Assembly (NCBI GenBank): GCA_944336975.1
Contig: CALVLH010000010.1
Location: 1-46,453, forward strand
Direction: 5' to 3'
DNA from: an uncultured Clostridia bacterium
Lineage (GTDB): Bacteria > Bacillota > Clostridia > Christensenellales > Borkfalkiaceae
Length of the DNA: 46,453 nucleotides
Numbering within the stretch: position 1 is the first letter of the stretch; every line of letters starts with the position of its first letter. Of the stretch, positions 7,527-20,557 are shown one piece after another. The notes under the pieces are model-generated. The model searched no databases and was not told the origin of the DNA. It was given only the letters and a program-made list of their open reading frames with translations. The position numbers were made by a program, and so were the translations under genes.

Positions 7527-10103
7527 ATGGGACTTTCACCGATGATGCAACACTACCTTCAGATGAAGGAGAAATACAAGGACTGCGTGGTGTTCTACCG
7601 CCTGGGCGACTTTTACGAGATGTTCTTCGACGACGCCGTCCGCGTCTCCAAACTGCTTGATCTCACGCTGACGGGCAGGGATTGCGGGCTGGAAGAGCGC
7701 GCGCCCATGTGCGGCATTCCCTTCCACGCGGCGGATACCTACATTTCCCGCCTCGTGGCGATGGGCGAAAAGGTCGCCATCTGCGAACAGCTTTCCGATC
7801 CCAAGGAATGCAAGGGGATGGTCGATCGGGACGTCATCCGCGTCGTGTCCGCGGGGACGGTCATCGAGGACAATCTGCTCGACGAAAAGAAGAACAACTA
7901 TCTCGCCTGCGCCTATCGCTCGGAGAAGGGATATGCGGTCGCGTGGGCGGACATCACGACGGGCGAATTCCGCGCGGCGGAGTTTCCCGATTCGGAAAAA
8001 CTGCTCTCCTTCCTCGTCAATCTCTCGGTGGCGGAGGTCATCTGCAACAACGAGCTGTTGCTCGAAGTGAAGGACTGTTCGGAGATCGAACGGGGCGCTC
8101 TGCCGCGCTTTTCCTGTTATCTGCCCTGGGCGTTTCAGAAGGGCTCGGCGGAAAAGGCGCTCTTTTCTCAGCTCTCCGTCCGCTCGGCGGAGGCGTTGGG
8201 GCTCGACCGTCATCCCGCCGCCCTCATCGCCGCGGGCGCGCTCGTACAGTATCTGCTCGAAACGCAGAAACACTCCCTCAAAAACCTCAATTCGGTGCGC
8301 TATCAGGACAATTCCGCCTTCATGACGCTGGATTCCGTCGCGGTGCGCAATCTGGAACTGCTGAAAAACAACGCGGAGGGCAAGCGGTATGGTTCGCTCC
8401 TGTGGCTGCTCGACCGCACCAGGACGGGCATGGGCGCGCGTCAGCTTTCGTCCATGATCCTCTCGCCTCTGCACGACAAAGCGGGCATCGAAAGGCGGCT
8501 CGCGGCGGTGGACGAACTGTACCGCGCGACCGTCATCCGCATGGGGCTTTCGGATATGCTCTCGGGGATGCGCGACGTGGAGCGGCTTGCGGGCAGGATC
8601 TCCAACGGAAACCTGCAACCGCGCGACTGTCTTGCGCTGTCGCAGTCTCTCTCCGTCGTGCCTTCGCTCAAATTGCAGCTTGCGGGATTCTCCTGCAATC
8701 TGCTCAGAGAGATCTCTGCCGATCTCGTGGACACCAAACCCGTCTGCGATCTGCTCGACGCGGCGATCTCTCCCGACGCGCCCGCGACGACCAAGGACGG
8801 CGATTATATCCGCGAGGGATATAATTCCGAGCTGGACGAACTGCGCGCCGTCAAGAACGACAGCAAAAAGATCATCGCGGAAATGGAAGCGCGCGAACGC
8901 GAGGCGACGGGCATCCGCACGCTAAAGATCGGCTTCAACCGCGTATTCGGATATTACATCGAAGTCTCCAACTCCTTCAAAGACAAAGTGCCGTATTCCT
9001 ATGTCCGCCGTCAGACGCTGACGACGGGCGAGCGGTATATCACGGAAGAGCTCAAAGCGCTGGAAAGCAAGATCTTCGGGAGCGAAGAGGGAGCGCTCAG
9101 GCTGGAATCCCGCCTGTATGCGGAGATCCTCGACGTGCTCGAACGCAACATCCCCGTATTACAGCAGATCTCCCGCGCGGTCGCCATGCTCGACGTGATC
9201 GTGTCCTTCGCGACGGTCGCCAAGGAAAACCGCTATTGCCGTCCCGAGATCGCGGAGGGCGGCGGAACGCTCACCGTCGAAGAGGGCAGGCATCCCGTCG
9301 TGGAAGCGATCTCGCGCGAGCGGTTCATCCCCAACGATTGCCTTTTGGACGGCGGCGAAAACCGCACGATGATCATTACGGGACCGAATATGGCGGGCAA
9401 GAGCACCTATCTGCGCCAGACTGCGCTCATCGTGCTCATGGCGCATATCGGCAGTTTCGTGCCGGCAAAGCGCGCCGTCGTTCCGCTCACCGACCGCATC
9501 TTCACGCGCATCGGCGCGAGCGACAATCTCATCCTCGACCGCAGTACTTTCATGGTGGAAATGACGGAAGTTGCGAACATCCTCCGCAACGCCACGCCCG
9601 AAAGCCTTCTCATCCTCGACGAAGTCGGGCGGGGGACGAGCACTTACGACGGGCTTTCCATCGCGTGGTCGGTCATCGAATATCTGACGGAAAAGGTGCG
9701 CGCAAAGACGCTGTTCGCGACCCATTACCACGAACTCACCGAACTCGAAGGCAAGCTGGAGGGCGTGAAGAACTATAAGATCAACGTGCGCGAGCTCAAC
9801 GGCACGATCGTGTTTTTGCGCAAGATCGTCCGCGGCGGCGCCTCGCGCAGTTTCGGCGTGGAAGTCGCCGCGCTCGCGGGCGTGCCCGAAGAGGTCACAT
9901 CCCGCGCCAAGCGCATCTTAAAATCGCTCGAAAAGAACGACCTGACGCGCGCTCAGGCGTCGGCGGCGGAAGAAGAGGAGCCGCAGAAAGAGGAGAAGGG
10001 ACAATTCCTCATGAAAGAACTCAAAGAGCTGGATCCCGATTCGCTCACGCCCATGCAGGCGCTCATGCTCCTCAACGAATGGAAGAAAAAAGCGGAGGAA
10101 TAA
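7527..10103 (+). CDS. mutS: DNA mismatch repair protein MutS
   Basis: The protein has 858 residues, normal for the family. MutS scans DNA for mispairs and recruits MutL in an ATP-dependent way. The mismatch-wedging Phe29-Tyr-Glu31 sits in YRLGDFYEMF. The connector, lever and clamp domains follow, then the ATPase with Walker A GPNMAGKST at about 619-627, Walker B LLILDEVGRGTS, and the ATHYHEL switch. It ends in an acidic linker and a LLNEWKKKAEE tail. The final codons, stop and ribosome site for the next gene are duplicated directly downstream (see the repeats at 10070 and 10139). It lies between miaB and mutL, the standard Bacillota order. Confidence 0.98.
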   Translation: MGLSPMMQHYLQMKEKYKDCVVFYRLGDFYEMFFDDAVRVSKLLDLTLTGRDCGLEERAPMCGIPFHAADTYISRLVAMGEKVAICEQLSDPKECKGMVDRDVIRVVSAGTVIEDNLLDEKKNNYLACAYRSEKGYAVAWADITTGEFRAAEFPDSEKLLSFLVNLSVAEVICNNELLLEVKDCSEIERGALPRFSCYLPWAFQKGSAEKALFSQLSVRSAEALGLDRHPAALIAAGALVQYLLETQKHSLKNLNSVRYQDNSAFMTLDSVAVRNLELLKNNAEGKRYGSLLWLLDRTRTGMGARQLSSMILSPLHDKAGIERRLAAVDELYRATVIRMGLSDMLSGMRDVERLAGRISNGNLQPRDCLALSQSLSVVPSLKLQLAGFSCNLLREISADLVDTKPVCDLLDAAISPDAPATTKDGDYIREGYNSELDELRAVKNDSKKIIAEMEAREREATGIRTLKIGFNRVFGYYIEVSNSFKDKVPYSYVRRQTLTTGERYITEELKALESKIFGSEEGALRLESRLYAEILDVLERNIPVLQQISRAVAMLDVIVSFATVAKENRYCRPEIAEGGGTLTVEEGRHPVVEAISRERFIPNDCLLDGGENRTMIITGPNMAGKSTYLRQTALIVLMAHIGSFVPAKRAVVPLTDRIFTRIGASDNLILDRSTFMVEMTEVANILRNATPESLLILDEVGRGTSTYDGLSIAWSVIEYLTEKVRAKTLFATHYHELTELEGKLEGVKNYKINVRELNGTIVFLRKIVRGGASRSFGVEVAALAGVPEEVTSRAKRILKSLEKNDLTRAQASAAEEEEPQKEEKGQFLMKELKELDPDSLTPMQALMLLNEWKKKAEE

Positions 10104-10177: not shown

Positions 10178-12284
10178 TAAGATCAATCTTTTGACGGCGG
10201 ACGTCTACAACCGTATCGCGGCGGGCGAAGTGGTCGACCGCCCGTATTCGGTCGTGAAAGAGTTGGTGGAAAACGCGATCGACGCGGGCGCGAAGGAGAT
10301 CGTCATCGAAGTGGAACAGGGCGGCAAAAAGCTCATCCGCGTGACGGACGACGGGAGCGGCATTTCCAAGGACGACCTCAAAAGCGCATATCTGCCGCAC
10401 GCGACGAGCAAATTGAAGACGGCGGAAGATCTGGAACGCGTCATGACGCTCGGCTTTCGCGGCGAAGCGGTGGCTTCCATCGCTTCCGTGTCGCGCATGA
10501 AGATCGTCTCCAAGACGGCGGACGCGGACGCATTCGCGCTTTCCTGCACGGGCGGCGTGCTCGGCGAGATCGTCCCCGAAGGCGGCGCAAACGGCACCTG
10601 CGTGACGGTGGAAGATCTGTTTTTCAACACGCCCGCGCGGCTGAAATTCCTCAAATCGGACAGCGCGGAGGAGGGCGACATCGCCAATATGGTCTCCCGC
10701 TTCATTTTATCCCGTCCCGAGATCTGCTTTACCTATTATACCAACGGCAAAGTGAAATACCGCTCGTTCGGCGACGGGCTGACGGCGGCGCTCGCCGTCG
10801 TATACGGCGCGGACGCGCCCAAAAACTGCTATGAGATCCGCGCGGAAAAGCACGGCGTATCCCTGCGCGGGTTTATCGGCGATCAGAATTATTCCAAACC
10901 CAACCGCAGTTATCAGAGCCTGTTCGTCAACGGGAGATATGTCGTCAATCAGACGGTGAGCGCGGCGATCACCAACGCCTACGCCGCCTATCTCATGAAG
11001 CGGCAATATCCCTTCTATGTGCTTTTTCTGGACGTCCCGAGCGAGATCGTGGACGTCAACGTGCATCCCAACAAGGCGGACGTGCGCTTTGCGGACAATC
11101 AGGTCATCTACGGCTGCGTGTATTCCATCGTGTCTTCGGTGCTGGACGGAAATTCGCGCGCGCTCGAATATATCGTGCCCGACAGGCTGAGCTCGGAAGC
11201 GGAAGAGAAACCGCAGGCAGGGAACGCGGAAACGTCGCCCGCGGCGTCCTTTGCGGAAACGTCGCCCGTCGGAAGAGAGGCGTCTTTGCCCGACGGTCCT
11301 GCCGTAAAAGGCGCGGCTTCGTCGGAAAAGGCGTTCGGGGAACCCGCAGGGATGGCGGGACAGCGTTCGCCCCGCGCGGCGGAACCGTCCCGCGCTCCGT
11401 CGTATTCTCCCGCGCAAGGCGCTTTTTCCTCCCGTTCCGCGGGAAAAAGAAGCGAAGAGATGGGCAGACCCGCCGTTTCCGACCGGGAAATGACGGTGGA
11501 AGAGGCGAAGAAACAACTCGAATTTGAAATTCCCGTCACGGGCGGCAGATCGCCCGCGCCGCGCCCTTCGGCGTATCCCGTCGGGGAGGACGCGCCCAAC
11601 GTCATGGAAGTGCGTCGCTCTGCGCCCGCGGAGAAAGAGGACGCATTCGAGGAAAATAAGCGCTATCTGGAAGAGCTTGCCCGCAAGGCGAAGCAGGAGC
11701 GCGTGGACGTCGCTTCCGCCGTGTTCAAAGGGGAACTCTTCCATACATATCTCATTTATGAAGCGGGCGACGACGCGTATCTCATCGACCAGCACGCGGC
11801 GCACGAGCGGCTCATTTACGACCGCCTGAAACGCAAATGCGAGGCGCGGGAAGTCGCGTCGCAGCCCATGCTCGTGCCGTATGTGTTCACGGTCAACGCG
11901 TTGGAAAACAGTTTTTTGGAGAGAAATCTCGAAAATATCCGCTCCCTCGGCTTCGAGATCGAGGAATTCGGCGGCATGAGTTATAAGGTGTCCGCCGTTC
12001 CGCTCGATCTGCAGGGGATCCGTCTTGAAGAATTCTTCGGCGAGATCCTGTCGCAGGCGGAGAGCCTTCGGGCGATCAGGCTGGACGAACTTCTCAAAGA
12101 CAAGCTCGCGACGGCGGCGTGCAAAGCGGCGGTCAAGGGCGGCGAATCGCTGACGGCGGACGAAGTGCGTTCGCTCATGGAGCAGATGCAGGGAAATATG
12201 GGACTTCGGTGCCCGCACGGCAGGCCCGTCGCGGTCAGGCTCACGCGCACCGAGATCGAAAAAATGTTCAAGAGGATCGTATAA
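10173..12284 (+). CDS. mutL: DNA mismatch repair protein MutL (nicking type)
   Basis: The protein has 703 residues. The N-terminal GHKL ATPase (about 1-330) shows ELVENAIDAGA, DDGSGI, and TLGFRGEA. A low-complexity Pro/Ala/Ser/Glu linker runs to about 480, then the dimerisation and endonuclease domain. The metal-binding motif is DQHAAHERLIYD starting at Asp539; the family consensus DQHA-x2-E-x4-E has Glu at the last position and here it is Asp550. ACKAAVKGG and CPHGRP, the other metal-site motifs, are present. With no mutH in view this is the strand-nicking MutL of most bacteria. The linker is long and its sequence looks unconserved. The start overlaps the duplicated mutS tail and miaA starts two bases after the stop. 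Confidence 0.97.
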   Translation: MAKINLLTADVYNRIAAGEVVDRPYSVVKELVENAIDAGAKEIVIEVEQGGKKLIRVTDDGSGISKDDLKSAYLPHATSKLKTAEDLERVMTLGFRGEAVASIASVSRMKIVSKTADADAFALSCTGGVLGEIVPEGGANGTCVTVEDLFFNTPARLKFLKSDSAEEGDIANMVSRFILSRPEICFTYYTNGKVKYRSFGDGLTAALAVVYGADAPKNCYEIRAEKHGVSLRGFIGDQNYSKPNRSYQSLFVNGRYVVNQTVSAAITNAYAAYLMKRQYPFYVLFLDVPSEIVDVNVHPNKADVRFADNQVIYGCVYSIVSSVLDGNSRALEYIVPDRLSSEAEEKPQAGNAETSPAASFAETSPVGREASLPDGPAVKGAASSEKAFGEPAGMAGQRSPRAAEPSRAPSYSPAQGAFSSRSAGKRSEEMGRPAVSDREMTVEEAKKQLEFEIPVTGGRSPAPRPSAYPVGEDAPNVMEVRRSAPAEKEDAFEENKRYLEELARKAKQERVDVASAVFKGELFHTYLIYEAGDDAYLIDQHAAHERLIYDRLKRKCEAREVASQPMLVPYVFTVNALENSFLERNLENIRSLGFEIEEFGGMSYKVSAVPLDLQGIRLEEFFGEILSQAESLRAIRLDELLKDKLATAACKAAVKGGESLTADEVRSLMEQMQGNMGLRCPHGRPVAVRLTRTEIEKMFKRIV

Positions 12285-14552: not shown

Positions 14553-17246
14553 GTGGGAGTGTTTGAAAAAATCCGATTCCGTGGGGGTTTTCGTTCCTAT
14601 CAGCAGGAAGTGCTCGATCGTGCGGATGAATTTCTGGCGGATAAAAAAATACACATCGTCGCCGCGCCGGGTGCGGGGAAAACGGTGCTCGGGCTGGAAC
14701 TCATTCGCAGGATCGGAAAGAACGCGCTCATCCTTTCCCCGACGGTCACCATCCGCCATCAGTGGAGCGAGCGCTTTGCGAGACAGTTTATTTCAGATGG
14801 CGGAAATGCGGAAGATTATGTATCCGAAAGCGTTTATTGTCCGCGCTCGATCGTTTCTGTGACCTATCAGACGATTTACTGCGCCTTTCGCGGGCTTTCC
14901 GACAAGGAAAGCGATGAGTTGACGGGAAAAACGGAGGATGTGGACTATAAGACCTTTGATCTGCGCGCGTTTATGCGGGAGAACGGGATCGGAACGATTT
15001 GTCTGGACGAGGCGCATCATCTGCACAGCGAGTGGTATAAGGCTTTAAGCGATCTTTTGAAGGACTTGGACGTGACGGTGATCGCGCTGACCGCGACTCC
15101 GCCGTATGACGAGGATGAAAACGGATGGCAGAAATACACCGATCTTTGCGGTGAGATCGATTTTGAGATCATTGCACCCGAATTGGTGCAGGACGGCGTT
15201 TTATGTCCGCATCAGGATTACGTCTGTTTCAATTATCCGACGCAGGACGAACTGAATATCTTGAAGGAGTTTGACCGTGCGGTGGAAGGGGCGATCACCG
15301 AGCTTTCCGAAACCGATCTTCCCGAGAGAATGCGCGATCGCCTTCTGCACATGAGCGAAGAGGATTTGTTTCGATATGCGCAGGAAAATATCTTGCTCTG
15401 TTCGGCGCTTTCTCTGCTCGGGGCGCCGTTACCCCGCCGTTTTTGCCGTATACTGACTCTGCACGGAAGGTTGCCTGCGCCGAAGCGCGCGGCGGTGGAA
15501 GAGGCGATCTGTTATGTCGTCGCGCATCCCGAATTGTTCGGGGAGGAGTGCGCGAAAGGCATTGCGGAGATCTTCCGAAAAGCGGGGTTATGGGAGCGCG
15601 GCCGCGTGAAGATCTTGCGCTCTGAGCGCGTTTCCCGTATGCTTGCGTCTTCGCTGGGGAAACTCAATTCCGTCGCCGAGATCGCCAAAGCGGAGAGCGG
15701 TTCCGAAGGGGAGAATTTGCGAATGCTTATTCTTACCGACTATGTGCGAAAACAGACGCTTCCCGTCATCGGGACTTCGGAAGAACTCAAAGAGATGAGT
15801 ATCGTCAGTGTGTTTGAAAGCGTTCGGCGAGAAAAGGAAGCGGATCGTGCGATCGGTGCGCTTAGCGGCGCTCTCGTCATTTTGCCCCGCTCTTGTTCGG
15901 CGCGGCTGGAAGAATTGTGCAGACAAGAAGGAGTGTCCGTTTCCCGAAAACCGCTCGGGGATCTCGAATACGAACAAGCGGAGTTTTCCGGAGGGAATGT
16001 ACATAAAGTTCGCATCGTTACCCGCCTTTTGGAAGAGGGGCAGATCCGTATTCTCGTCGGCACGAAATCGTTGCTCGGTGAAGGGTGGGATTCTCCATGT
16101 ATCGATACGCTCGTGCTTGCAAGCTGTGTGGGAAGTTATATTCTTTCCAATCAGATGCGCGGACGCGCCATTCGCACGGACGGAAACCGACCTCAAAAGG
16201 TGGCGAATATCTGGCATTTGGCGACGGTGGAGCCTTACGGCGTGTTCGGCGAAAAGTTTTCGGATCGGAGAAGGGAAAAGCGGGCAGGGAACAAAGATGG
16301 CTTTGTTTCTGCCGACTACGATACGCTGGAACGTCGGTTCAAGGCGTTTTGGGGGCCCGCCTATTCCCGTTCCGTGGTCACCAACGGAATTGGGCGTGCA
16401 GACATCATAAAGCCTCCGTTTGATCGGGAAGGGTTTGAAAGAATCAACGAGGAGATGTTCCGAAGGGCGAAGGACCGCGCTTCCGTTGCGGAGAGTTGGA
16501 AGAATTCATTGGGCAACGAAGCGCTCTCCGTGACGTCGGAAGCGCGCGTCCCCGAGCGAAAGAAATATCTGCCGCAACAGGTCGTGTTTGTAAATTATGC
16601 GCTTTTGTTTCTCTGTCCGACCTTATGCGGCGGTGTTTATGTAAATGTGTACTCGGCCCGTGCCGATGAAAATCCGTTGACTTTTTTCCTGATCAGCATT
16701 TTGGCGATCGCTATCTGTCTTGTTTTGGAATATTGGATTGTTCGTTTTCTCATTTCGGTGTTGACCCCGACTAAAATTGTCAGAAATCTGAGCGAAAGCC
16801 TGTTCGAGACGTTGCAGGGAACGGGAAAAATATCGTCTCCGACGGCGACGCTGTCCGTGGAAGTCCCCAAAGGGTTTCCCGGGATGAGCGTGGAGCTGAA
16901 ATATTCGACCGATCGCGAACGCGAGGTGTTTGCGGGCGCGTTGAACGAAATGCTCTCTCCTGTACAATCGCCTGCGTTTATTATCGTTCGGAACATCGGA
17001 AAAAGGAAATGTTTTCGGCTTTCCTTTGCCTGTCCCGCCGCCTTGGATACGCAGGAAGCGCGGAAATTGTTTTTACAATGCCTGAAAGCGCGCGGCTGGG
17101 ATTGCGACGCGGTCTATACGCGCAATACGGAAGGGCGCAGGGCGCTCGTTCAGGCGCGGAAGCATTCCTTCGTCAATGTAAACGATCCCGAGCGCATTAT
17201 GATCGGCAAGCGTGTGGACAAATCCAACAAGGCGGAATACCGTTGA
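14553..17246 (+). CDS. Superfamily II DEAH-type helicase with C-terminal transmembrane hairpin
   Basis: The protein has 897 residues from GTG 14553, with GAGGT seven bases upstream. Residues 1-200 form RecA-like domain 1: a Gln in RSYQQEV, Walker A APGAGKT (38-44), DEAHH (152-156) and TAT (180-182). Domain 2 follows an insert of about 250 residues and carries VGTKSLLGEGWDSP near 500 and QMRGRAIR near 535-541. The helicase part is like the restriction-subunit-R/UvrB class. Two hydrophobic segments, about 678-700 and 707-737, put a membrane hairpin behind the motor, and residues 740-897 form a soluble domain I do not recognise. Codon use is more A+T-rich (many TTT, GAT, ATT) than in mutL or miaA. 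It stands alone between housekeeping genes. Its role is unknown; phage defence or membrane-linked nucleic-acid processing are guesses. Confidence 0.85.
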   Translation: MGVFEKIRFRGGFRSYQQEVLDRADEFLADKKIHIVAAPGAGKTVLGLELIRRIGKNALILSPTVTIRHQWSERFARQFISDGGNAEDYVSESVYCPRSIVSVTYQTIYCAFRGLSDKESDELTGKTEDVDYKTFDLRAFMRENGIGTICLDEAHHLHSEWYKALSDLLKDLDVTVIALTATPPYDEDENGWQKYTDLCGEIDFEIIAPELVQDGVLCPHQDYVCFNYPTQDELNILKEFDRAVEGAITELSETDLPERMRDRLLHMSEEDLFRYAQENILLCSALSLLGAPLPRRFCRILTLHGRLPAPKRAAVEEAICYVVAHPELFGEECAKGIAEIFRKAGLWERGRVKILRSERVSRMLASSLGKLNSVAEIAKAESGSEGENLRMLILTDYVRKQTLPVIGTSEELKEMSIVSVFESVRREKEADRAIGALSGALVILPRSCSARLEELCRQEGVSVSRKPLGDLEYEQAEFSGGNVHKVRIVTRLLEEGQIRILVGTKSLLGEGWDSPCIDTLVLASCVGSYILSNQMRGRAIRTDGNRPQKVANIWHLATVEPYGVFGEKFSDRRREKRAGNKDGFVSADYDTLERRFKAFWGPAYSRSVVTNGIGRADIIKPPFDREGFERINEEMFRRAKDRASVAESWKNSLGNEALSVTSEARVPERKKYLPQQVVFVNYALLFLCPTLCGGVYVNVYSARADENPLTFFLISILAIAICLVLEYWIVRFLISVLTPTKIVRNLSESLFETLQGTGKISSPTATLSVEVPKGFPGMSVELKYSTDREREVFAGALNEMLSPVQSPAFIIVRNIGKRKCFRLSFACPAALDTQEARKLFLQCLKARGWDCDAVYTRNTEGRRALVQARKHSFVNVNDPERIMIGKRVDKSNKAEYR

Positions 17247-17378: not shown

Positions 17379-17411
17379 AATTCCCGCCTTCCGATCAGGA
17401 TCGCGGGAATT
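17379..17411. repeat. Nine-base inverted repeat upstream of the SPFH promoter
   Basis: AATTCCCGC (17379-17387) and GCGGGAATT (17403-17411) are perfect inverted arms separated by 15 bases. The centre lies about 55 bases before the -35 of the SPFH promoter. There is no T run, so an operator or activator site is as likely as a terminator. Confidence 0.45.
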
Positions 17412-17447
17412 CGTTATCCGCTGATTTCATAATTTACAGATTTATGA

Positions 17448-17476
17448 TTGACAATGGCGTTATGATATGATATAAT
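17448..17476 (+). promoter_or_regulatory. Full-consensus promoter for the SPFH gene
   Basis: TTGACA (17448-17453), 17 bases, TATAAT (17471-17476), preceded by TGA to give an extended -10. Both hexamers are perfect, predicting strong constitutive transcription. Confidence 0.93.
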
Positions 17477-17513
17477 TATAATATCAAAATAATATCACAT
17501 CGGGAGGATGGAT

Positions 17514-18425
17514 ATGGAAAAAGAATTGATGGAAAAAAAGGCGCATGAAGTGAGCGGCTGGCCGATGCTCGCCTTGACGGTGCTCATGCTGGTCGGCGCA
17601 TTCGTGCTGATCTCGCTCGGCGCGGTCAGGGAGTCGGGCGTGTTGCTCGGGCTCGGCGTGGCGGCGATCGTGATCTTTATGTTCCTGGTGGCGGGGTTCC
17701 GCACGTTGCAACCCAACGAATCGTATGTCCTTACGCTGTTCGGAAAATATTACGGCACGCTCAAGCGCGACGGGTTTTTCTGGATCCTGCCTTTTTGCGT
17801 TGCGGTAAATCCCGCGACCTTCGGATTGGTGGGCGGCAAGAAACTTTCGCTGAAAGCGATGACGCTCAACAACGAAAAACAGAAAGTCAACGATGAAGAG
17901 GGCAATCCCATCGAGATTTCCGTCGTCGTCATCTGGCGTATCGTGAACACGGCGCGCGCCGTCTTCAACGTCGAGAATTATATGCAGTACATCTCCACGC
18001 AGTGCGACGCGGCGATCCGTCAGGTCGCGCGGCAGTATCCTTACGACGTTTCCTCGAACGGCGACGAGAAATCGCTTCGCGGTTCGGCGCAGGAGGTCGC
18101 GGACATTCTCAAACAGGAGATCCAGGTACGCGTGGATATGGCGGGGATCGAGATCCTGGAGGCGCGCATTTCTCACCTTGCATACGCGCCCGAGATCGCC
18201 GCGGCGATGTTACAGCGCCAGCAGGCTTCCGCGATCATCGCGGCGAGACAGAAGATCGTCGAAGGCGCGGTCTCCATGGTGAAGATGGCGCTCGATAAGC
18301 TCTCGGACGAATCCATCGTCGAGCTGGACGACGAACGCAAGGCGGCAATGGTCTCCAATCTGCTCGTGGTGCTCTGCGGCAATAAAGACGCACAGCCGAT
18401 CGTGAACAGCGGCAGCATCTATTGA
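17514..18425 (+). CDS. SPFH/Band 7 (stomatin-flotillin-like) membrane protein
   Basis: The product has 303 residues. The ATG at 17508 touches its GGGAGG site, whereas ATG 17514 lies six bases from GGAGG, so I start there. Two hydrophobic helices (about 17-36 and 42-62) anchor the N-terminus. The SPFH domain follows, with [23 protein letters not shown] and a helical C-terminal part of the [14 protein letters not shown] type. SPFH proteins form membrane-bound oligomeric cages or microdomain scaffolds, often with a protease partner; no NfeD or protease gene is adjacent. A small ribbon-helix-helix gene follows and ends in a strong terminator, so the two form a compact operon from the perfect promoter at 17448. 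Confidence 0.9.
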
Positions 18426-18480
18426 GACCGCGCAGATCATGCGCAAGTCTCTTTCGTGAACGGGAAAAGGGGGACGGAAA

Positions 18481-18690
18481 TTGGAAAAGAATACAGAAAA
18501 CAAGACGAAAAAGCAAATTCCGCTCCGCCTGTCGCCCTCGCTGTATGCGGAGTTGATGCAATGGGCGGAAGACGATTTCCGCTCTCTGAACGGGCAGATC
18601 GAATACCTTCTCACCGAATGCGTGAGGGAGCGCAAAAAATCGTCTGCGGTTGCAGGTCTCGGCGAACGCAACGAGGAAAGCAAGCGCTGA
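18481..18690 (+). CDS. Small Arc-like ribbon-helix-helix protein
   Basis: The product has 69 residues, starting at TTG 18481 behind AGGGGGACGG. After a Lys-rich lead, KQIPLRLSPSLYAELMQWAEDD and LNGQIEYLLTECV follow the strand-helix-helix pattern of Arc/MetJ-type DNA binders (alternating strand residues, then two helices). The C-terminal 20 residues are charged and probably disordered. It sits 55 bases after the SPFH gene and just before the shared terminator. Possible roles are autoregulation of the pair or an unrelated DNA-binding function. I recall such small genes beside SPFH genes in Clostridia under misleading names, but I could not check this. Confidence 0.75.
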   Translation: MEKNTENKTKKQIPLRLSPSLYAELMQWAEDDFRSLNGQIEYLLTECVRERKKSSAVAGLGERNEESKR

Positions 18691-18700
18691 AAACAGAAAA

Positions 18701-18740
18701 AACAAACGCAGTCCGTTTTTCGGACTGCGTTTGTTTTTGT
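18701..18740 (+). terminator. Strong terminator closing the SPFH operon
   Basis: A perfect 15-bp stem, AACAAACGCAGTCCG (18701-18715) with its complement at 18721-18735, closes on a TTTTT loop and is followed by a short T-rich tail. Confidence 0.9.
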
Positions 18741-18963
18741 GTGAAAGTCATCCTGTCCGCCGTGACGCAGTCAAGCGTGCTCAGGCGTTTTTCGGTGCAA
18801 GGCGGAGTTTCCAAGCCTTATCGCAAAATCGACGCGAAGGGGACGGAAGAAGAAAAGCTGCCGATTCCGTATCCGCTCTTTCTGCGCGGGCGGCTTGGGA
18901 GAATGCGTACGCCGCGAAGTCAAAGCACGAAAGCGCAAAGGGCAAAGTCAATGGTACGGGCGC
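18741..18963. other. Gene-free interval between converging operons
   Basis: About 220 bases lie between the SPFH operon terminator and the potD terminator. Overlapping frames exist here but have no ribosome site, no recognisable motif and compositions typical of noise. I see no promoter or repeat. Confidence 0.5.
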
Positions 18964-18992
18964 AAAAAAACGGATCGTTCGATCCGTTTTTT
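18964..18992. terminator. Terminator of the pot operon (also works on the + strand)
   Basis: An A-run, the stem ACGGATCG with CGATCCGT (18970-18987) and a T-run form a symmetric hairpin immediately after the potD stop on the - strand. Confidence 0.9.
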
Positions 18993-18997
18993 AGTTG

Positions 18998-20557
18998 TTA
19001 ATCGTGGCGATAGGGCTTTTGATCGACGAGTTCATAGCCTTTTTTCGGTTTTCTGCGGAACCAATCGATCTTTCCGCCGAATTTGAACAAAAGCACGAAT
19101 GCGGCGATCCCGACCACGCCGACGCAAATAACTGCGATCGCCCAGGCGTCGAGCTGAGAACCCTTGACCTTCGTCCACAATTCGTTGATGCGCTCGTTTG
19201 CGTCGTCGTCAAAGTAGTCCATGACGGCGCAGCGGTGCATGACTTCTTCGGTGGGGTATTGCCCGTAAAGCTGGCGCTCGAGCTGATCTTCATAGGTGAG
19301 CAGGACGGTCTCCTTGCCGAAGAAATAGCTCAGATCGTACTTGACGGCGTCTTCCTCGTCGCCTTCCTCCACGCCGTAGGTATATTCGACGTATTCATAC
19401 ACTTCGTCCGCCGCGATGACGGGCGTATAGCCGATGTAATACATATTGCGGACGGCATTGTCGGGGCGGGAGAGGAAGTTGATGAACGCCTGCGCCGCCT
19501 CTACCTGCGCGCCCTTGGGCATCACCCAGCCGTCGAACCAGAGGTTTGCGCACTCTTCGGGGATGAAGTAGTTGAGATAGACCGCGTCTTCTTCGGAGAG
19601 CTCTTCGTCGCCTTCGCCGTATTCCGCGAGGTCGATCGCATAGACGGCATCGCCGCTCCACGCAAAGTTGAGCCAGATGATGCCTTTGACCATATCCGAT
19701 TTACCCGTATCTGTCTCAAAGCCGTAGATGTTTTCTTTCATTTCCAGCAGGATCTCCTGCACCTTGGAAACGGTCTCTTCGTCCGTGCGGTTCATGATCT
19801 CGGTCACGCCCTGATTGTAAGCTGCGTCGTCCATCTCGCCGTTTTCATAGCGGTCGCGCAGGTCGAGCAGTTCGTCCTGATAGAGGATCGCCGTACCGAC
19901 GAAATAGCTGTCGCGGACGTTGTCTTTGGTGGTGACTTTGTTCGCATACGCGGAATCGATCATCGCGTCCCAATAGTCCAGCTCGTCGGGGGAGACGTAT
20001 TCGGGATTATAGATGAATCCCGTCGTTCCCCACATATAACCCGCCGCATACTCGCTCCACGAATGCTTTTCGCCCGTCGATTTGAGCGTGACGGTGTTGG
20101 AATCGAATACGTCTTTGATGTACGGCGAGAGGTTGGCGATGTAGTAGTTGAGCTCGTTTTTCGCGTCGAAGAAATCCTCGGTGAACGGTTCGAGCATATC
20201 TTCCGCCGCCAGCTTCATGATCATGTAGTCGGAAGGGCAGATGAGGTCGTACTGATCTCCCAACTTTAACTGGTTATACATATCCTCATTGGTGCCGAAG
20301 GTGGAATATTCCACGGTGATGGGCGTATCGTACGTCTCTTCGTACCAGATCTCGAAATCGTAGATGAGCGACTGTGCGTCCTCGTTTTCCTCGATGTCGT
20401 ACTGATAAGAGCCTTCGCCGCCCTCGTCGATGTATTCTTCCCAGTTATACACGCGCAGGCGGATGGGCTTGTCTTCGCCGCAGCCCGTCAGCGTGAGCAG
20501 GGAAGAGAAGGCGAACGCCGCCGCGAGCGCGGTCGCCGTGATGCGTTTTGCGTTCAT
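18998..20557 (-). CDS. potD: Polyamine ABC transporter substrate-binding lipoprotein PotD with C-terminal membrane helix
   Basis: The protein has 519 residues, far longer than the ~350 usual for PotD. A lipoprotein signal ends in LTLTGC with the acylated Cys26. It is followed by RVYNWEEYID, the opening strand of the spermidine/putrescine-binding fold, and VEYSTFGTNEDMYNQL and YDLICPSDYMI. Insertions rich in Asp/Glu account for part of the extra length. Residues 471-492 form a clear transmembrane helix followed by a basic tail (FRRKPKKGYEL), so the protein is anchored at both ends, with the C-terminus probably cytoplasmic. It is last in the operon and overlaps potC by ATGA. Substrate (spermidine or putrescine) cannot be told from the sequence alone. 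Confidence 0.92.
   Translation of the reverse strand: MNAKRITATALAAAFAFSSLLTLTGCGEDKPIRLRVYNWEEYIDEGGEGSYQYDIEENEDAQSLIYDFEIWYEETYDTPITVEYSTFGTNEDMYNQLKLGDQYDLICPSDYMIMKLAAEDMLEPFTEDFFDAKNELNYYIANLSPYIKDVFDSNTVTLKSTGEKHSWSEYAAGYMWGTTGFIYNPEYVSPDELDYWDAMIDSAYANKVTTKDNVRDSYFVGTAILYQDELLDLRDRYENGEMDDAAYNQGVTEIMNRTDEETVSKVQEILLEMKENIYGFETDTGKSDMVKGIIWLNFAWSGDAVYAIDLAEYGEGDEELSEEDAVYLNYFIPEECANLWFDGWVMPKGAQVEAAQAFINFLSRPDNAVRNMYYIGYTPVIAADEVYEYVEYTYGVEEGDEEDAVKYDLSYFFGKETVLLTYEDQLERQLYGQYPTEEVMHRCAVMDYFDDDANERINELWTKVKGSQLDAWAIAVICVGVVGIAAFVLLFKFGGKIDWFRRKPKKGYELVDQKPYRHD

Follow-up and report, generated by a model that had tools for sequence, protein, structure and literature searches.

What a solitary helicase gene is doing among ordinary neighbors is the question raised by a stretch of DNA from an uncultured Clostridia bacterium of the family Borkfalkiaceae (contig CALVLH010000010.1, positions 1 to 46,453; the whole stretch of 46,453 nucleotides is called the window here). 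The gene occupies 14553..17246 of the forward strand, encodes 897 amino acids, starts with GTG, and has GAGG 8 nt 5' of its start; all stranded features of the window given below lie on the same strand. The product joins a superfamily II (SF2) motor to a pair of hydrophobic segments, probably a membrane hairpin, and to a C-terminal domain (CTD). The class of the motor is already known, and its combination with the hairpin and this CTD is unrecognised in family libraries. Moreover, by title and opening of the abstract, none of the literature matches listed describes a motor-hairpin-CTD architecture, subscription papers being outside the coverage. We tentatively propose that the protein is a membrane-associated translocase of double-stranded DNA (dsDNA) that acts on incoming DNA in defense.

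Motor, probable membrane hairpin, and C-terminal domain

The motor belongs to the XPB/Hef/RIG-I type of SF2 enzymes, and the protein is likely a nucleic acid translocase. An earlier note, made from the DNA letters, had reported complete SF2 motifs, and they were found at the positions it claimed. In an alignment of 47 proteins, Walker A (APGAGKT, residues 38-44, 14664..14684) has G40, G42, K43, and T44 identical in 47/47, Walker B (DEAHH, 152-156, 15006..15020) has D, E, and H155 in 47/47 with A, C, or S as its third letter, and motif VI (QMRGRAIR, 534-541, 16152..16175) has Q534, R536, G537, R538, and R541 in 47/47. These motifs lie in two RecA-like domains, the first at residues 1 to 229 (approximate ends, 14553..15239; Pfam ResIII at 13-184) and the second at about 389 to 560 (15717..16232; Helicase_C at 487-542). 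Pfam scored ResIII at 5.7e-17, DEAD at 1.5e-8, and Helicase_C, below its cut-off, at 5e-4. An AlphaFold model of the whole protein, built with 8 sequences and having a mean predicted local distance difference test score (pLDDT) of 75, places an all-helical insert between the two domains (about 230-388, 15240..15716) and a further helical region ahead of the hairpin (about 585-655, 16305..16517), where W649 is found in 47/47. Structural matches of the motor include XPB, Hef, FANCM, RIG-I, MDA5, UvsW, RadD, and chromatin remodelers, and XPB/Rad25 proteins account for the PDB chains listed as related in sequence. By analogy with these proteins, among them some that act on RNA, the substrate would be dsDNA. 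Annotated plasmid records title such proteins "DEAD/DEAH box helicase family protein."

Two hydrophobic segments follow the motor, as had been noticed at first reading: residues 677-695 (16581..16637), with a mean Kyte-Doolittle (KD) value of 1.92 and an octanol sum of -7.2, and residues 712-730 (16686..16742), with values of 2.55 and -12.2. Both stand well above the next-highest 19-mer peak elsewhere in the protein, which is 1.31. The idea of a motor encoded by one gene and carrying a recurrent hydrophobic hairpin held up, as a linker of hairpin length is present in 43/47 sequences and weak in two (L013 and L016). In this full-linker set, at least one 19-mer of KD ≥1.6 occurs in 41 sequences, the exceptions being L013 and L016, and two occur in 26; both segments are favorable on the octanol scale in 36/43. 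Lysine and arginine together average 2.1 residues ahead of the pair, 0.9 within the loop, and 4.0 behind it. Such positive charge on both outer flanks fits a hairpin whose two ends are cytoplasmic, with the reservation that the flanks were counted over 15 residues and most loops have fewer, which biases the count toward that topology. By hydrophobicity and charge bias, both read from sequence, the pair is a probable membrane hairpin of two helices.

The fusion of motor and membrane segment, the conservation of which the note had put forward for checking, is usual and not indispensable. In four sequences of the 47 (Tritonibacter L022, L134, L135, and L176), the linker is shorter and the hairpin is missing, while the motor and CTD are kept. 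Homologs without the segments had been named as grounds for refuting the original idea, and such homologs therefore exist beside 43 that have the linker. At least three changes between presence and absence of the hairpin are needed on a tree built from columns among which are those of the hairpin itself. Because all 47 proteins have the motor and CTD and four have no hairpin, we conclude that the motor and CTD are the core and that the hairpin is dispensable in some lineages.

The C-terminal tail of about 160 residues was described from the start as being of no recognized kind, and that description stands. The CTD (738-897, 16764..17243), with helices (H) and strands (E) in the order H-E-E-H-E-E-H-E-H, folds separately when modeled alone (mean pLDDT of 84 and predicted template modeling score of 0.79, the last 17 residues being below 50), and sequence and fold searches with it returned no convincing family or structure match. 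An alignable CTD is present in 47/47 sequences, with P828 in 47, R869 and G861 in 45, R857 in 42, and R862 in 37. Column 808 has R in 45/47 and A in the window protein itself. One acid is conserved, E799 (43/47), the only acidic column among those kept in 75% of the 47. No PD-(D/E)XK-like residue set was recognized in the CTD alignment, where a divergent site is possible, and no nuclease was found among the fold matches. A CTD profile gave two matches in 299 genomes of the phylum, both inside a full motor-CTD protein, so this sample contained no match to a CTD on its own.

The gene is intact and under purifying selection. Compared with a sister copy of 84% identity, the ratio of nonsynonymous to synonymous substitution rates (dN/dS) is 0.117 overall, 0.10 in the motor, 0.17 in the hairpin, and 0.15 in the CTD.

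Distribution and descent

The family is patchily distributed, being held by 0.4 to 9% of the genomes in six samples: 9/151 relatives (the match of one, G098, being confined to 52 residues of helicase at E 2.9e-4), 2/398 genomes of the phylum, 1/248 of the Sulfitobacter family (the seed itself), 18/198 of one order of the phylum, 16/198 of the Gleimia order, and 11/297 of the window's own order, where the window or seed genome is counted if it was part of the sample. Named holders include metagenome-assembled genomes called Erysipelothrix and Phenylobacterium as well as Gleimia, Sulfitobacter, Paenibacillus, and Tritonibacter. Within the window's genus, 5/91 genomes have the helicase (G000, G027, G028, G050, and G079), and forcing the four full copies of the genus into one clade costs 178.8 log-likelihood units (approximately unbiased test, p-AU 2e-6). 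Since the constraint is rejected, either transfer or an old duplication with loss must be assumed. The horizontal transfer suggested earlier is consistent with both the patchiness and the scattered genus copies. Its other supposed sign, an A+T-rich codon use, is suggestive only: the G+C content at third codon positions (GC3) is indeed lower, at 0.611 against 0.735 ± 0.087 for 32 other open reading frames (ORFs) of the window, a contrast that is weak (z of -1.4, with three ORFs at or below 0.611) and drawn against a mechanical list in which some ORFs are possibly not genes.

The 47 aligned rows are the window and 46 loci of Bacillota, Actinomycetota, and Pseudomonadota. Duplicate genomes were counted once (L002/L011/L031, L003/L017/L030, L004/L025, L005/L026, L006/L027, and L007/L028), and counts over the 47 are not independent, because two near-identical groups remain (e.g., L029, L130, and L139-L141). 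Left out were the partial L008/L010 and L014, a second Tritonibacter record, two Halorussus records covering only 20% of the query, G098, 5/18 holder genomes of the one phylum order, 3/16 of the Gleimia order (G1036, G1092, and G1173), and a broken Rhodovulum locus. In the last of these (L019, plasmid pRSMBA, 7986-10321), the helicase homolog is in separate pieces and apparently decaying.

Comparison with known systems

How the protein relates to known systems can be told from what it shares and what it adds. The XPB/Rad25 and Hef/FANCM/RIG-I motors are 13 to 21% identical to it in the structural rows shown, and the family here adds the hydrophobic pair and a CTD without a recognized relative. 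The XPB repair helicase profile (NF045503) reached 32.8 bits against a cut-off of 610, over residues 13-170 only. RadD (YejH) is a soluble protein that is alike in its motor part; the listed RadD chain has 564 residues, and the hairpin and this CTD appear to be additions here. The Dnd restriction enzyme profile (TIGR04095) scored 28.5 bits against 600 over residues 32-252 only, and that of type I HsdR (NF008521) scored 19.3 against 729 bits, with no HsdM or HsdS among eight window neighbors. The PbeA profile of PADLOC matched at positions 253-486 of 672 only (E 7.4e-10). Zorya is not indicated either, as the same eight neighbors include no ZorA or ZorB and an ABC permease matched MotA_ExbB below the cut-off (E 0.095). 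To our knowledge, the SF2 motors of known restriction and defense systems are soluble.

Hna is likewise one protein with an N-terminal SF2 motor and an extra C-terminal domain. It is described as DinG-like with a PD-(D/E)XK nuclease, and the word "transmembrane" is absent from its paper (PMC13381803). The motor here, in contrast, is XPB/Hef-like, and no nuclease signature was recognized.

Defense genes beside some relatives

Whether the relatives live among defense genes depends on the lineage. We scanned 37 hand-picked proteins at 23 loci, and 2 window neighbors, with PADLOC and obtained convincing defense matches at five loci (L132, L137, L138, L175, and L180), which had been picked for defense-like looks, such that 5/23 is no unbiased rate. 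In a streptococcus-like genus (its name is guessed), a type I restriction endonuclease and PDC-M67A lie 3' of the helicase in L137, a gene with the same start as that endonuclease (unscanned) and then a ThsA-like gene lie 3' of it in L138, and Tmn lies 1.6 kb beyond it in L132. In the Gleimia order, JetA, JetB, JetC, and JetD of the anti-plasmid Wadjet system are directly 3' of the helicase at L175. JetC is found in 10/15 holder genomes examined (two of them partial matches), within 10 kb of the helicase in five, elsewhere in five others, and not in the remaining five. It is 3.3 kb downstream of the helicase in G1122 and 3.0, 3.5, and 9.5 kb upstream in G1036, G1150, and G1019, respectively. 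The Wadjet-linked G1178, G1122, G1150, and G1019 belong to one tree clade, which also includes G1000, a genome with no JetC; G1036 was not placed in the tree. Because two arrangements occur in proteins that are about 64% identical, more than one linkage event is suggested, though not many. The helicase is no component of the Jet system itself.

At L180, a methyltransferase-like gene (11109-11846; mad2 match at 7e-15) lies between the Wadjet genes and the helicase. Methyltransferase-like matches to mad2 (L025, L027, and L180) were set aside as generic or weak, as were an ABC ATPase matching mad3 and others (L182) and a PDC-M16B match of 2.5e-4 (L187).

Small genes directly upstream of the helicase form a second kind of association. 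An XpaC-like gene overlaps or almost touches it in three Rhodobacterales, Sulfitobacter (L016, 7486-7980), Tritonibacter (L022, 7552-7989), and Rhodovulum (L019, 7624-7989), and none was seen among the window neighbors examined. Two of the proteins match XpaC (PF10112) below the curated cut-off (E 6.6e-5 and 0.027), and the third is related to them by alignment. The Sulfitobacter copy starts with a hydrophobic stretch, and the Tritonibacter copy not obviously so. At L133, which keeps the hairpin, a 119-amino-acid protein that combines hydrophobic stretches with a charged tail is encoded 9 bp upstream of the helicase (8643-9002) and had no PADLOC or PHROG match.

What the protein may do

How a motor of this kind might act is best approached through the reading we prefer, that of a defensive dsDNA translocase, associated with the membrane, that acts on DNA coming into the cell, to which we give a probability of roughly 0.4. 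The patchiness and the separate links to defense genes favor it; the window locus, many other loci, and the conserved place in the streptococcus-like group do not. In a more specific form, which we hold to be somewhat improbable, the protein would be a complete defense system, with the membrane-anchored translocase engaging entering foreign DNA and a CTD of new fold serving as recognition or effector part, alone or beside Wadjet or restriction. The hydrophobic pair would form a hairpin across the inner membrane, its two ends cytoplasmic, and the motor and the arginine-rich CTD would work on dsDNA at the membrane. The protein would bind entering or newly arrived DNA of a phage, plasmid, or conjugative element, perhaps with the CTD recognizing the DNA, a DNA end, or a partner, and ATP hydrolysis would drive translocation along it. 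Use of the DNA might then be stopped by blocking, by stripping or displacing proteins, or by passing the DNA to separate nucleases; in some actinobacteria, it may be handed to Wadjet. Proteins whose hairpin is weak or absent may be anchored in part by the product of another, small gene, such as the XpaC-like one of Rhodobacterales.

Several observations weigh against the defense proposal. The hairpin is absent from 4/47 sequences and weak in two more, and residues 656-696 are below a pLDDT of 50 in the AlphaFold model. No convincing defense gene was found at 17/23 of the loci sampled with PADLOC, and L030 gave only a weak TIR match (4e-6) 7 kb away. The window neighbors are ordinary, with no convincing defense gene among the eight scanned with Pfam and the two scanned with PADLOC. 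The linkage to defense islands that the note had put forward for checking is present in some relatives and is not general. Moreover, the defense-linked loci represent few lineages, and the conserved chromosomal place in one streptococcus-like group would fit a housekeeping role too. Finally, the aligned set was gathered with full-length profiles; motor-only relatives would have been missed, and the bond of motor to CTD may look too tight.

The foremost alternative, itself rather improbable, is an accessory translocase of DNA repair or replication, RadD-like or Hef/FANCM-like, for which the membrane would serve as a platform and the defense neighbors would be incidental. The kinship of the motor suits such a role, but patchy presence and genus copies that do not form one clade would not be typical of a core repair gene, and some relatives are linked to defense genes. 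Less probable again is that the pair is a buried hairpin for dimerization or CTD docking in an ordinary soluble SF2 enzyme. Its absence from 4/47 proteins and weakness in L013 and L016 would suit a soluble hairpin. In addition, the motor parts of some members hold stretches that are equally hydrophobic at their peak: the best motor-part 19-mer averages KD 1.58 and reaches 2.08, so a KD of 1.6 alone is no proof of a membrane segment. The window pair, however, lies far above any other peak of its protein, the segments of L181 peak at 2.93 and 3.51, and between the sister copies the segment changes faster than the motor (dN of 0.20 against 0.08) and nonetheless remains hydrophobic.

An SF2 translocase with a probable membrane hairpin could also import DNA in transformation or conjugation, much as ComFA, a competence helicase comparable in place and class. 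We think this less probable still, as the helicase adjoins the anti-plasmid Wadjet system in some relatives and no competence, pilus, or conjugation gene was recognized in the neighbor ORF lists, which were read by eye with no family search. Least probable, and in our judgment very improbable, is an orphaned motor subunit of an HsdR/Res, Dnd, or Pbe type restriction system that has lost its partners. The Pfam ResIII assignment and weak matches to PbeA, dnd_restrict_1, and PRK11448 point that way, but the NCBIfam matches are far below their cut-offs and all of these matches cover motor parts only. Moreover, a CTD alignable throughout the family and a low dN/dS speak against an orphan, and the type I restriction endonuclease adjoining the helicase in L137 is itself a complete HsdR-like protein. 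Returning to the proposed defense translocase, a motor-hairpin-CTD family in three phyla provides a defined gene set for asking whether a single motor intercepts DNA at the membrane, and the Wadjet linkage in some actinobacteria offers an opening for a direct genetic test.

The window locus

How the helicase gene came to its place in the window is most simply explained by one insertion in an ancestor of the window species and that of G050, a sister species in which the order is Met_gamma_lyase, helicase, and a solute-binding protein gene. By Pfam, the eight window neighbors comprise miaA, Met_gamma_lyase, SPFH, one unmatched ORF, and ABC transporter genes. The SPFH/Band_7 gene (17508..18425), a common neighbor in the genus, had been considered as a possible system partner of the helicase and is probably not one. 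It is preceded by a sigma-70-type promoter match outside the helicase unit (17448..17476, 12/12, TTGACA-17-TATAAT), it is present in 60/91 genomes of the genus (own genome counted) compared with 5/91 for the helicase, and it was not found in the draft genome of G050, which has the helicase. We regard the SPFH gene as a probable bystander. An inverted repeat between the two genes (17379..17411) is a possible terminator that has no T run and is absent from the terminator-like listing. The sequence ATATCAAAATAATATCAC follows the promoter match and precedes the SPFH gene (window 17440-17508), and the same ATATCAAAATAATATCAC precedes SPFH in G018 (L096).

Met_gamma_lyase is present in 87/91 genomes of the genus (again with the own genome counted), and its distance to SPFH ranges from 133 bp, in G018, to 5 kb (L092-L098), a variable site that contains genes of metabolism and of membrane proteins. 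In other genomes the gap holds, among others, uracil phosphoribosyltransferase-like and galactokinase-like genes, recognized by eye. Mobile element scars were not apparent: no tRNA or tmRNA lies in the window, no Rfam match reached the gathering score, and no direct repeat of at least 12 nt has one copy on each side of the helicase gene. A 181-amino-acid ORF between the SPFH and ABC transporter genes (18456-19001) has a low GC3 (0.49) and matched nothing in Pfam, NCBIfam, or PADLOC, and a short piece of it is similar in L092 and L096. A phage origin of the helicase was considered and set aside, as four viral-contig scans, which required exact peptide words, gave no relative. Two fecal scaffolds filed as "Bacteriophage sp." and marked unverified (L020 and L021; MT836806.1 and MT838455.1) do carry the helicase gene; they are possibly misfiled bacterial contigs, and L020 has transporter-like neighbors by eye.
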